Below are positions 60,536-64,000 of a DNA stretch of 64,000 nt, in pieces. Origin of the DNA: Herminiimonas sp. KBW02 (GTDB lineage: Bacteria > Pseudomonadota > Gammaproteobacteria > Burkholderiales > Burkholderiaceae_D); NCBI RefSeq assembly GCF_003852535.1, contig NZ_QAJP01000004.1, positions 668,719 through 732,718 on the forward strand, written 5' to 3'. Each line of letters starts with the position of its first letter. Within the stretch, counting starts at the first letter, position 1. The notes under the pieces were generated by a model. It was given only the letters and a program-made list of their open reading frames with translations, searched no databases and was not told where the DNA came from. Position numbers and translations under genes: made by a program.

Positions 60536-61054
60536 TTGAACACGAAGAGAAGCAAGCGCTGGGATGGGAAGATAGATACGCTGACCGCGGATTACCTGAA
60601 GGATGTCGTAACGCAGATGAAGTCCTACGGCGATCGCGTGCAGTTCGCATTGAATGGGCCGGGACAAAAGCCTCACTATCAGGTCATCAATAGTTTTGAA
60701 AAAAAAATGGCATTCGACAGCAATAATCATTTGCTGCATCCGACTGAAGAAGAGTTCGTCGGCGCCAATGCAACGCCTGTGCTGACGCTGGCGCAGATAG
60801 AGAATGCAATAGCCAGTGTTGGTGTGAAGCGTGTGACCACCACCACGCGTGCGGTACGCAGCGTACGAGGCAGCAGCACGCCGGCAACGCGTCCGGGTGA
60901 CCTGATCGATATCCAGAAGTACGAATACTTCAAGAACAACGTACAGAAGCTGCCGGAAGGCATACGCGCCTATTCGCAAGACATTACCAATCTGATGAAG
61001 AAGGGCATGACGGCTGAAGCTGCTTTTGGTGAGATCGTCGAACAATACTTCTGA
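60536..61054 (+). CDS. Orphan hypothetical protein downstream of tRNA-Ser
   Basis: Unrecognised. The frame is open back into the tRNA, but transcription should stop at the terminator at 60461-60492. Candidate starts are TTG 60503, TTG 60536 (giving LNTKRSKRWDGKID, with TGGA upstream) and ATG 60617; I use 60536 with low certainty, giving 172 residues. Composition is like core genes. A basic Thr/Arg-rich middle (VKRVTTTTRAVRSVRG) separates two predicted helical parts; the end is KGMTAEAAFGEIVEQYF. A terminator follows. Position behind a tRNA hints at past integration, but no integrase is present. Confidence 0.55.
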   Translation: MNTKRSKRWDGKIDTLTADYLKDVVTQMKSYGDRVQFALNGPGQKPHYQVINSFEKKMAFDSNNHLLHPTEEEFVGANATPVLTLAQIENAIASVGVKRVTTTTRAVRSVRGSSTPATRPGDLIDIQKYEYFKNNVQKLPEGIRAYSQDITNLMKKGMTAEAAFGEIVEQYF

Positions 61055-61089
61055 CGGACCGGCGAGCATGACTCGCCTGGTCTGGATCT

Positions 61090-61124
61090 AAAAAAGCCCG
61101 CATCGTCTGGATGCGGGCTTTTTT
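61090..61124. terminator. Bidirectional terminator between the orphan gene and the 68-aa gene
   Basis: AAAAAAGCCCGCATC with its exact complement around GTCTG, A and T runs on both sides, between two convergent genes. Confidence 0.92.
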
Positions 61125-61190
61125 ATTGGCCGTAGCGGTCAGTGTGTGGCCATCCGGCGCTGAGATGACGTCTGTGCGTAATTGGCGCAC

Positions 61191-61397
61191 TCAGACTCGG
61201 TAAATTTTTTCCCCGGTCTGCACAATTTTAAATTTTGCATCGGATAGCGGGTCGAGTGCGCGGCCATCTGCCAATTGATAAGTTTTGGAGCCTGGCAGTT
61301 CGTCCGGGTCGGGCGTACTGATAGGCGTTTGATAAACCTCAACGTGGTAAGCGGCACCGGTCTTTCCTTTGGCATCGAATTTTTCTACCAAATCCAT
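61191..61397 (-). CDS. Small hypothetical protein (68 aa)
   Basis: Unrecognised. From MDLVEKFDAKGKTGAAYHV to the stop; a mixed alpha/beta composition with no signal peptide. AAAGGAGA lies 5 bases before ATG 61397, a strong ribosome site that decides the start over the longer frame to 61511. It has its own unit between the flagellar control region and the shared terminator. Confidence 0.7.
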   Translation of the reverse strand: MDLVEKFDAKGKTGAAYHVEVYQTPISTPDPDELPGSKTYQLADGRALDPLSDAKFKIVQTGEKIYRV

Positions 61398-61531
61398 AAG
61401 AGTCTCCTTTGGGTTGAGGGTGAGATAACAATACCAGATTTTGTTAGTCGTGCCAGTGGCATTCTGATGGTCGTTAAATGATTGCCTGAACAATAACAAA
61501 TCATTTATCAACTAAGGAGAAGGGCATCTGA

Positions 61532-61564
61532 TTTGCTTATTGAGTTGTCAATTCAATAAGCAAA
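61532..61564. repeat. 12-bp perfect inverted repeat upstream of flhDC
   Basis: TTTGCTTATTGA at 61532-61543 and its exact complement at 61553-61564, with a 9-base centre. No T run after it. Possible operator for the 68-aa gene or flhDC. Confidence 0.5.
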
Positions 61565-61608
61565 GTGTAATAAATCGAAAAAAAATCAAAATATTTTCAT
61601 GTAAACCC

Positions 61609-61635
61609 TAAAGTTCCGGTTTTCGCGGCCGTTAT
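61609..61635 (+). promoter_or_regulatory. FliA (sigma-28) type promoter 1 upstream of flhDC
   Basis: TAAAGTTC, 11 bases, GCCGTTAT. Consensus is TAAAGTTT-N11-GCCGATAA. AAAATATTTT sits 21 bases upstream of the -35 start. Confidence 0.65.
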
Positions 61636-61708
61636 CAAATTCAGACAGCAGGGATTCTTTCCTGATTTTGGGCTCTGAAAATATTTTAAAAATATTTTGT
61701 TTGAACCC

Positions 61709-61735
61709 TAAAGTTTGGAAAAAACGTGCCGTTAA
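61709..61735 (+). promoter_or_regulatory. FliA (sigma-28) type promoter 2 upstream of flhDC
   Basis: TAAAGTTT, 11 bases, GCCGTTAA: one mismatch to consensus. Starts exactly 100 bases after promoter 1, with the same AAAATATTTT box 20 bases upstream and the same AACCC lead-in. Confidence 0.75.
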
Positions 61736-62087
61736 AGAGACAAGAGCCTCAAAAGAAGTTCATTTTTTTGTCTCTGGAGTCGATTTTTGGAAAATTCTGT
61801 ATCCCCCAGAATTACTGAAAATTGCCCCAAAACATGCTTTTTTATAAGCAACATCTGAATATGGAATGAATGCTCAGATGCAATATACAAGCCACTCTCC
61901 GCCTCATTTCATGTGAGCGCGTATTGAATGCTGGTCGACGTTTGTAAGACAAACGCCTACCGGCTTATTGTCGTTTTCTCTGTATAAAAATACAGAGGCC
62001 TGCCTATTCCAGCCCCTAGTTTCCCCCTGCAGAATGCAATCACTGGCTACACATTACCGCCAGGAAATTCACAGATCAGGGGATAAC

Positions 62088-62405
62088 ATGACAACTAACG
62101 ACATCATTGCTGAAATTCGTGACGCCAATCTGGGTTACTTAATGCTTGCACAACAAATGATCCGTTCCGATAAGGCGACCGCAATTTTCCGCCTCGGGAT
62201 CAGCAATGAGATCGCTGACCTGATCGAAGGCATGAACAATGCCCAGATCCTCAAACTCGCTGGCGCCAATATGATGCTGGCCCGCTTCCGCTTCGATGAT
62301 GGTGCCATCCTCGGCATGCTGACCAATTACAACAAAGATCGTTCGCTTGCGCATTCGCACGCAGCTATCCTGATGGCAGGACAAGCTGTTGAGCAAATCG
62401 CTTAA
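62088..62405 (+). CDS. flhD: Flagellar transcriptional master regulator FlhD
   Basis: 105 residues from MTTNDIIAEIRDANLGYLMLAQ. Forms the FlhD4C2 activator of class II flagellar promoters. Identified by LAQQMIRSDKATAIFRLGIS. Start 62088 follows AGGGG; a longer frame to 61968 covers the leader hairpin and is not coding. flhC follows after 52 bases. Confidence 0.96.
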   Translation: MTTNDIIAEIRDANLGYLMLAQQMIRSDKATAIFRLGISNEIADLIEGMNNAQILKLAGANMMLARFRFDDGAILGMLTNYNKDRSLAHSHAAILMAGQAVEQIA

Positions 62406-62457
62406 TTAAGCAGTCGCTGATCGTATTGTTGTAATTCTTCAGAAGCGAGCGAAAAAA

Positions 62458-63003
62458 ATGGCCAAGAAAAGTGTAGTGACAGAAGCACAAGAAATTCAGC
62501 TTGCAATCGAGCTCATTAATTTGGGTGCACGTCTGCAGTTGCTGGAATCGGAAACCACTCTGTCGCGCGAGCGCTTGCTGAAGTTGTATAAAGAATTGCG
62601 TGGTGTATCTCCACCTAAGGGGATGCTGCCATTTTCGACTGACTGGTTCATTACCTGGCAACCGAATATTCATTCTTCATTGTTTATGGGCATCCATAAA
62701 TACCTGATCGAACACGCACAAATCTCTGGTATTCAGGCTGTGATGAAAGCGTACAAGCTTTATCTGGAGCAGGTTGAGCTGGGTACTGATGGCGAGCCTG
62801 TTTTGTCATTGACGCGCGCCTGGACTCTGGTACGATTCTTCGATAGCAAAATGCTGGCAACCGCATGTTGCAGCGAGTGTGGCGGCAACTTCGTCGTGCA
62901 TCGCCTCGATTTGAATGCAAATTACACCTGTGGCTTGTGCCACATGCCATCCCGCGCAGGTAAAACCAAACGTGCCAAGGCAGACAGTCTGCTGGCAGCC
63001 TGA
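62458..63003 (+). CDS. flhC: Flagellar transcriptional master regulator FlhC
   Basis: 181 residues. DNA-contacting partner of FlhD. N-terminal helices (VVTEAQEIQLAIELINLGARL), then the zinc site with four cysteines in CSEC and CGLC (near 139 and 158), as in E. coli FlhC. Confidence 0.96.
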   Translation: MAKKSVVTEAQEIQLAIELINLGARLQLLESETTLSRERLLKLYKELRGVSPPKGMLPFSTDWFITWQPNIHSSLFMGIHKYLIEHAQISGIQAVMKAYKLYLEQVELGTDGEPVLSLTRAWTLVRFFDSKMLATACCSECGGNFVVHRLDLNANYTCGLCHMPSRAGKTKRAKADSLLAA

Positions 63004-63035
63004 ACGGATCGCCTTATTATTGAAAGAGTGTCTGT

Positions 63036-63836
63036 GTGAAGAAAGTGGGGCGCTCCGGCGCAAAGTCGGCGCCTCCAGGGACGGTATTCCAGATACCGGC
63101 AGTGCAAGCCCTCCTGTTTCAAATCTCCTCCTTTTTTATAGTCTTGCTGCTGGCTTATAGCCTGGCGGCGCTGTCCGGCTGGTCCATGAATGTGCTGGTC
63201 GCTGCATGCCTGCAAGGTGTGATCGCTGCCGGGCTGTCATGGTGGCGCGGCATGGCGCCGTGGTGGTTGCTGATACAATTGCTGTTTTTACCGGTGCTGT
63301 TGCTGACCTTGAGCTTGCAGTGGTCGCCATTTATTTTCCTGGCGGCCTTCCTGATCTTGTTATTCCTGTACTGGAGTACGTTTCGTACGCAGGTTCCGTA
63401 TTACCCGTCACGTCTGTCTACATGGCAGGCGGTCGAAGGTTTGCTGCCGCCTGAGCAAAAAATCAGCTTTATAGATATCGGCAGTGGTCTTGGCGGCCTG
63501 GTGATGAGTCTGGCACGACGACGCCCGGAAAGTCGTTTCGTCGGCATTGAAATTGCACCATTGCCGTGGCTGGTGAGCAGCTTGCGCGCGCGCTTCGGTG
63601 CCAGTGGTGCACACTTTGAGCGGGGTGATTACGGTCGCCTGAATTTTACCGATTACGATGTGGTGTTTGCCTATCTGTCGCCAGCCGCGATGCCGGATTT
63701 GTGGCGCAAGGCGAAGGCAGAAATGCGCAGCGGTACTTTGCTGCTTAGTTATGAGTTCATCATCCCCGGGGCTCCGCCCGATATCGTGCTGGCACCCGAC
63801 GCAAGTGGCGTCCAGCTTTACGGCTGGCGTATCTGA
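63036..63836 (+). CDS. Membrane-anchored SAM methyltransferase, FAM173-like
   Basis: 266 residues, start GTG 63036. The first ~115 residues hold about four hydrophobic helices. The C-terminal half is a class I SAM domain: FIDIGSGLGGLVMSLARR, then GIEIAPLPWLVSSLRARFG, YDVVFAYLSPAAMPDLWRK and LLLSYEFIIPG. These pieces align by eye with the FAM173 lysine methyltransferases (ATPSCKMT/ANTKMT). Sits directly behind flhDC, 32 bases after flhC, so co-expressed with motility genes. Substrate unknown. Confidence 0.8.
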   Translation: MKKVGRSGAKSAPPGTVFQIPAVQALLFQISSFFIVLLLAYSLAALSGWSMNVLVAACLQGVIAAGLSWWRGMAPWWLLIQLLFLPVLLLTLSLQWSPFIFLAAFLILLFLYWSTFRTQVPYYPSRLSTWQAVEGLLPPEQKISFIDIGSGLGGLVMSLARRRPESRFVGIEIAPLPWLVSSLRARFGASGAHFERGDYGRLNFTDYDVVFAYLSPAAMPDLWRKAKAEMRSGTLLLSYEFIIPGAPPDIVLAPDASGVQLYGWRI

Positions 63837-63891
63837 GCCAATCTAAGCTTGCCTCCGGACTTTATTTCAGCGATTCCTCTCCGATAATCAC

Positions 63892-63918
63892 TCAAGTTCC
63901 AATAATTCACGCCGTTGA
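63892..63918 (+). promoter_or_regulatory. FliA-like promoter before the next flagellar gene
   Basis: TCAAGTTC, 11 bases, GCCGTTGA. Two mismatches in each half, but the same spacing and the GCCGTT form of the two sites before flhDC. The gene it would serve lies beyond the window. Confidence 0.45.
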
Positions 63919-64000
63919 ATGCATATGAGCGCTTGAGCGGTCAATACCACCCTTATATACAACAGGTACGGTGTCATCCTGGTTGCGCGTATGCAACTGT

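Follow-up and report, generated by a model that had tools for sequence, protein, structure and literature searches.

Flagellar control is usually drawn as a one-way cascade that runs from flhDC to FliA, and the locus analyzed here raises the question of whether FliA also acts in return on transcription of flhDC. The window (i.e., the whole stretch of 64,000 nucleotides from Herminiimonas sp. KBW02 that was analyzed) carries flhD (62088..62405, + strand; Pfam FlhD, 1.6e-43) and flhC (62458..63003, + strand; Pfam FlhC, 1.3e-89), two adjacent genes whose families were confirmed by Pfam and which represent the flhDC operon; its rank as top regulator is taken from the literature. The FlhC encoded in the window is 99% identical to that of H. 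contaminans, the nearest named record.

FliA-type sites upstream of flhDC

Direct inspection of the sequence upstream of flhD revealed two sites on the + strand, both of which read toward flhDC. Site 1 (61609-61635) consists of TAAAGTTC-N11-GCCGTTAT, with the -35 at 61609..61616 and the -10 at 61628..61635, and site 2 (61709-61735) consists of TAAAGTTT-N11-GCCGTTAA, with the -35 at 61709..61716 and the -10 at 61728..61735; all four boxes were assigned from the sequence, an E. coli matrix and identity within the genus. Both sites show the sigma-28 architecture, i.e., a -35 of the form TAAAGTTT, an 11-bp spacer and a -10 of the form GCCGATAA, which they match closely (near-consensus). Each is preceded by AACCC and by AAAATATTTT (61588-61597 for site 1 and 61689-61698 for site 2), and an extra copy of AAAATATTTT is located near site 2 (61678-61687, + strand). 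The AAAATATTTT copies ahead of the two sites are part of AT boxes that resemble an UP element, namely AAAATATTTTC at site 1 (61588..61598, + strand; L006, 10/11 against the consensus) and AAAAATATTTT at site 2 (61688..61698, + strand; L007, 11/11). At site 1, CCC stands immediately 5' of the -35 (61606..61608, + strand) and is identical in 13/13 genus genomes; CC was found at this position in 246 of 272 Oxalobacteraceae sites. As a purine peak falls 34 nt past the first T, transcripts are predicted to start at approx. 61643 (site 1) and 61743 (site 2), which would give leaders of approx. 445 and 345 nt, respectively, up to flhD. A near-perfect 33-bp palindrome is also located 5' of site 1 (61532-61564); alignment by eye indicated no evident conservation of this palindrome in the genus.

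The window was scored with a matrix built from 25 FliA sites mapped by ChIP-seq in E. coli (the rows of Table 2 in PMC4183435 with a score > 4; the accompanying passage of that paper gives 26). With 20.6 and 19.3 bits, the two sites ranked first and second among the 127,946 positions of the two window strands, followed by a match with 15.0 bits and, in fourth place, a weaker FliA-type site 5' of motA (63892..63918, + strand; MotA was identified by Pfam and lies beyond the window). Sequence and matrix rank thus bear out the claim of an earlier note on this DNA that two FliA-type boxes, each led by AAAATATTTT and AACCC, are placed ahead of flhDC.

In the 3.64-Mb genome, the pattern TAAAG-N14-GCCGNTA showed 8 exact matches, including 2 at flhD, 1 before flgM, 1 before a YjfB-type motility gene and 4 inside ORFs. 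When up to one mismatch was allowed, the pattern was rarer than its reversed control (84 as compared to 206 matches). By itself, the loose pattern is thus no proof, and the evidence rests on the full motif and its conservation. The genome encodes a single FliA above the family cut-off (1.5e-84), and FliA-type sites also precede flgM, motA, the YjfB-type gene, fliC and a flgK-like ORF (the last judged by eye, the YjfB-type gene and MotA by Pfam); the fliC, motA and flgK-like sites scored below the flhD sites. The site L008 (G000:C11:858225) lies ahead of the gene for the YjfB-type putative motility protein (Pfam, 5.7e-17). As scores of at least 10 on the sense strand between flhD and fliA occurred only at the flhD and motA sites, the FliA site of fliAYZ that is known from E. 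coli seems to be missing here, which would place the loop higher.

The 100-bp distance between the two sites had been taken as a repeat of the whole unit, suggestive of duplication or helical phasing. The AT box, CCC, -35 and -10 are indeed alike at both sites; the spacers differ, and to speak of the whole unit was an overstatement. The measurable direct repeat comprises 39 nt (72% identical, start-to-start distance of 100), and site-to-site spacing in the genus ranges from 76 to 100 bp, and the value of 100 bp is confined to a few strains. The data thus do not support duplication of a 100-bp unit, as the likeness ends at the promoter module and the spacing varies. With regard to phasing, the 134 related Oxalobacteraceae pairs less than 135 bp apart (spacing 66-132) showed a period of 10.7 bp that none of 500 null draws reached, a signal that vanished over distinct spacings, where 500 of 500 draws reached it; the periodicity may therefore reflect shared ancestry.

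Conservation of the sites and of the UP-element-like block

Both sites were found in 13/13 genus genomes, at -454 to -479 and at -377 to -382 relative to flhD. Mean pairwise identity among these genomes was 94% for the -35 of both sites, 88% (site 1) and 96% (site 2) for the -10, and 100% for CCC, as well as 72% (site 1) and 81% (site 2) for the UP block, as compared to 42% (site 1) and 75% (site 2) for the spacer. The boxes thus exceed the spacer at both sites, and the conservation in related genomes on which the earlier note had staked its proposal was observed. At site 2, the spacer (75%) almost matches the UP block (81%), which counts against our main reading of the sites as UP-bearing promoters of flhDC (see below).

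Among 89 non-redundant loci, 160 sense-strand sites were located within 600 bp 5' of flhD, as compared to 3 on the opposite strand, and sites of the same type elsewhere in these loci numbered 17 in 469 kb; at least one site was found in 79 of the loci and at least two in 64 (these counts, like that of leader terminators given below, omit L032-L035, i.e., four named loci that duplicate genomes of the genus). The sample was also extended at the order level (111 genomes with FlhD matches, which yielded 100 stretches from 99 genomes after leaving out G000, which was already included, 11 weakly matching genomes and second copies except one) and at the family level (132 genomes with matches, which yielded 21 new loci and 80 stretches). 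The 294 loci collapsed to 273 distinct regions, one of which (L353) has only 189 bases. At least one site was present in 137 of the 172 distinct Oxalobacteraceae (f1) regions, at least two in 111 and at least three in 24, counts which do not represent independent events as the regions are related sequences; a site on the reverse strand occurred in 10 of the 273 distinct upstream regions from all families. When the E. coli matrix was applied with a cut-off of 14 bits, at least one, two and three sites were found in 116, 75 and 14 of the 172 Oxalobacteraceae regions, respectively, as compared to 4/172 on the reverse strand and 0.4/172 expected from dinucleotide shuffles. The remaining 35 of the 172 regions had no site, which indicates that the feature is dispensable and likewise counts against our main reading; 7 of 8 Herbaspirillum-named loci belong to those without a site, and the eighth (L096) has two. 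Judging by these sequences, FliA sites have been lost or were never gained in parts of Oxalobacteraceae.

Outside this family (family codes are labels internal to this analysis), sites were present in 4/4 regions of f24, which includes Methylobacillus, 6/7 of f33, which includes Sulfuriferula, 5/5 of f41, 5/8 of f23 and 12/13 of a mixed named set, and were sparse in f14 (2/8), f4 (1/7), f8 (1/5) and f47 (1/2). No site was found in the regions examined from f30 (7 regions), f48 (7), f19 (5), f21 (4), f45 (4), f3 (3), f6 (3), f18 (2), f37 (2) and f9 (2), or from f15, f17 and f22 (1 each). The E. coli matrix gave slightly different results, i.e., a site in one region of f3 and in one of f9, no site in f8, and 11/13 in the mixed set.

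The UP element of rRNA P1-type promoters has the consensus AAAWWTWTTTT followed by NNNAAA. Assuming this consensus and its usual distance, we liken the AAAWWTWTTTT block of the flhD sites to such an element: it matches AAAWWTWTTTT then NNNAAA at an equivalent distance, and is attached here to a sigma-28 core promoter instead. Scores were taken for the 11-mer that spans -21 to -11 relative to the first T in the -35, using the best of three neighbouring offsets. Across the 272 Oxalobacteraceae sites, the mean score was 9.43/11 at offset 0 and at most 7.66 at 13 other offsets; 212 of these sites scored at least 9/11 at offset 0, as compared to 82/272 for the next best offset, and outside Oxalobacteraceae 28 of 46 sites reached this score. 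A strict FliA-type search gave 42 matches, which were spread over 20 of the 40 genomes, as compared to 6 for the reversed control, and among the 31 loci scored for the UP block a score of at least 9 was reached by 14 of 16 flhD sites as compared to 2 of 15 other strict sites, some of which may not be promoters (Fisher p = 5e-5). These data suggest that the flhD blocks would serve as UP elements bound by alpha-CTD. Bacillus subtilis hag, which encodes flagellin, has a sigma-D promoter with an UP element and thus likewise combines a flagellar sigma factor with such an element; its output is flagellin, unlike the master regulator encoded here.

Leader, dyad and possible outcome of the proposed FliA-dependent transcription

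Between the FliA promoters and flhD, approx. 145 bp 5' of the latter, lies an operator-like dyad, TGTAAGACAAACGCCTACC (TGTMRG-N7-CYTACA; 61943..61961, + strand), that was recognized by its conservation. It is part of the best-kept stretch of the leader (61928-61987, 90% identical within the genus, as compared to only 47-57% for 61743-61892). With up to 2 mismatches, 162 of the 172 Oxalobacteraceae regions have the dyad in the 300 bp that directly precede flhD, as compared to approx. 10 expected in shuffles. The dyad also occurred in families without FliA sites (f30, 5/7; f48, 5/7; f19, 5/5) and was less common in f4 (1/7), f33 (2/7) and f8 (2/5). Within the genome, the copy at flhD was the sole exact match to a fuller dyad pattern; three other rows, one of them the flhD place on the opposite strand, did not exceed the reversed control.

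A sigma-70 scan of 61050-62500 found no promoter-like site, with 2.7 expected by chance, so a class I promoter, if present, would be of non-standard form. A candidate class I -10, TATAAA (61983..61988, + strand), looks similar in the genus alignments. As the centre of the dyad lies approx. 43 bp before the start that this TATAAA would give, the dyad would suit an activator site of the class I promoter, and we regard it as probably a class I regulatory site. Passages of a study of Acidovorax citrulli (PMC7060138) describe lowered flhD and flhC RNA upon deletion of AcrR, a LuxR-type regulator that we would guess to be one candidate for acting at the dyad.

In six loci (L097, L102, L104, L107, L108 and L109), the dyad is located inside perfect or near-perfect hairpins of 17-21 bp, approx. 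-160 to -195 from flhD, the outer stems of which vary in sequence yet stay complementary. These hairpins could mean an RNA element; the widely kept TGTMRG-N7-CYTACA seems to fit a DNA operator better than an RNA hairpin. A 19-codon ORF, MLVDVCKTNAYRLIVVFSV (61928-61987), also overlaps the dyad; its frame is kept in 13/13 genus genomes (start codon ATG, GTG or TTG), 12 of which also keep the stop, and it could be a by-product of conserved DNA.

A scan of the window revealed no terminator-like site in the interval from site 2 to flhD. In the leaders of relatives (79 leaders, the 10 of 89 loci without a site being left out), terminator-like hairpins were present in 22/79, with 24/79 on the reverse strand, i.e., with no strand bias, as compared to 4.1 expected from shuffles; these hairpins count against our main reading. 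Overall, the motif, its orientation and conservation, and the lack of a terminator-like site before flhD support the suggestion of the earlier note that FliA feeds back on flhDC. We consider it likely, on these sequence features, that the tandem UP-bearing sigma-28 promoters transcribe flhDC and that freed FliA, by binding there and reading through into the operon, makes more flhDC and closes a positive loop. According to this model, the cascade would begin at a separate, proximal class I promoter controlled by the conserved dyad, FlhDC would activate the middle genes, including fliA, and completion of the hook-basal body would let FlgM leave and so free FliA; FliA-RNA polymerase, aided by alpha-CTD at the UP block, would then transcribe flhDC from both sites, such that the sigma factor itself would link the last tier back to the first. 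With less confidence, we lean towards a broader version in which FliA transcribes flhDC from one to three UP promoters in Oxalobacteraceae, in Methylophilaceae and in certain further families of betaproteobacteria, such that cells would commit to motility in a switch-like manner on completion of the hook-basal body; the UP-bearing composite module would then be kept at one place in several families, and the cascade would not be one-way.

The placement of the dyad fits our main reading but also bears on the sign of this feedback. As 263 of 266 Oxalobacteraceae FliA sites in regions that have the dyad are located 5' of it, the FliA promoters might fire through the class I promoter and the dyad and occlude them, which would amount to a promoter switch or to negative feedback, and strong UP-like promoters would favour such interference with the class I promoter. 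In a variant of this explanation, flhDC mRNA started by FliA would be poorly translated; in Salmonella, a sigma-28 transcript of fliA is, by the title of the report, translationally inert. However, RNA that reads through would carry flhDC itself, and the leader in the window has no terminator-like site; we regard occlusion or poor translation as an unlikely yet real rival.

The earlier note had also proposed a short RNA in the leader. The two promoters might mainly make a leader-derived sRNA, which would then arise much as the sigma-28-dependent sRNAs from E. coli UTRs do, and two observations favour this: a stretch comprising the leader and the first part of flhD has a more stable predicted fold than its shuffles (z -4.66), and UTR-derived sigma-28 sRNAs are described in passages of PMC10578931. 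On the other hand, the low identity of 61743-61892 within the genus, the missing terminator-like site and the lack of any Rfam match in 61158-64000 at E values up to 1 do not point to a conserved short RNA, and this explanation appears improbable. One sRNA unit per promoter was set aside as a main reading, as the 76-bp spacing would leave approx. 20 nt between a start and the UP block that follows, and conservation of the leader is low. Finally, it is hardly credible that the AT boxes of this AT-rich region nucleate an H-NS-like silencer with the FliA motifs as by-products of AT-rich DNA, as shuffles give 0.4/172 expected against 116 found, the AT block is fixed in offset and several Massilia-named loci retain the boxes even though their spacers are GC-rich.

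Relation to known flagellar feedback

The idea that FliA controls flhDC is not in itself new, since in enterohaemorrhagic E. coli FliA reportedly regulates flhDC transcription, as proposed here, to go by the title of the 2005 work of Clarke and Sperandio. By its title, the 1997 work of Kutsukake concerns autogenous control of flhD; further works cited in this literature are those of Tanabe (2011) and Singer (2013). The enterohaemorrhagic E. coli precedent lowers the surprise and makes the widespread version worth testing. In its passages on flhDC, a 2022 review (PMC9387321) credits Clarke and Sperandio 2005 with QseB binding at flhDC, and these passages make no mention of FliA acting there. 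The 52 sites listed for E. coli K-12 by FliA ChIP-seq (PMC4183435) include none 5' of flhD; the one that comes closest to flhD is located within flhC and serves motAB. The FliA promoters described there for E. coli K-12, with targets that include flgM, motA and fliC, share the TAAAGTTT-N11-GCCGATAA architecture; compared to these, the sites at flhD in Oxalobacteraceae have CCC and an UP-like block in addition and occur mostly as two or three copies.

Passages of other studies describe feedback through FliZ, on FlhDC activity by way of YdiV in Salmonella (PMC5809477) and on flhDC expression in Xenorhabdus (PMC3814329), as well as negative feedback through RflM in Salmonella (PMC3946378). As far as these descriptions go, enteric fliAZ autoregulation and FliZ feedback likewise let a late flagellar product raise flhDC or FliA output; the enteric route uses fliA's own promoter or FliZ, whereas in the present case the target of the sigma factor would be flhDC. 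In Herbaspirillum seropedicae, a fliA deletion is reported to be non-motile, and flhD is absent from the main text of that paper. Among the matches listed from the open literature, no passage mentioned FliA promoters 5' of flhDC in betaproteobacteria.

As far as the listed literature shows, the novelty lies in the tandem, UP-bearing arrangement and its conservation across betaproteobacterial families; its parts are of known kinds. If true, a direct return from FliA to flhDC that is conserved in several families would mean that many environmental bacteria are expected to show different dynamics (e.g., latching, two-state motility). The reading also names the exact bases to mutate. The same alignments also reveal a broader conserved flhDC element, i.e., the dyad.
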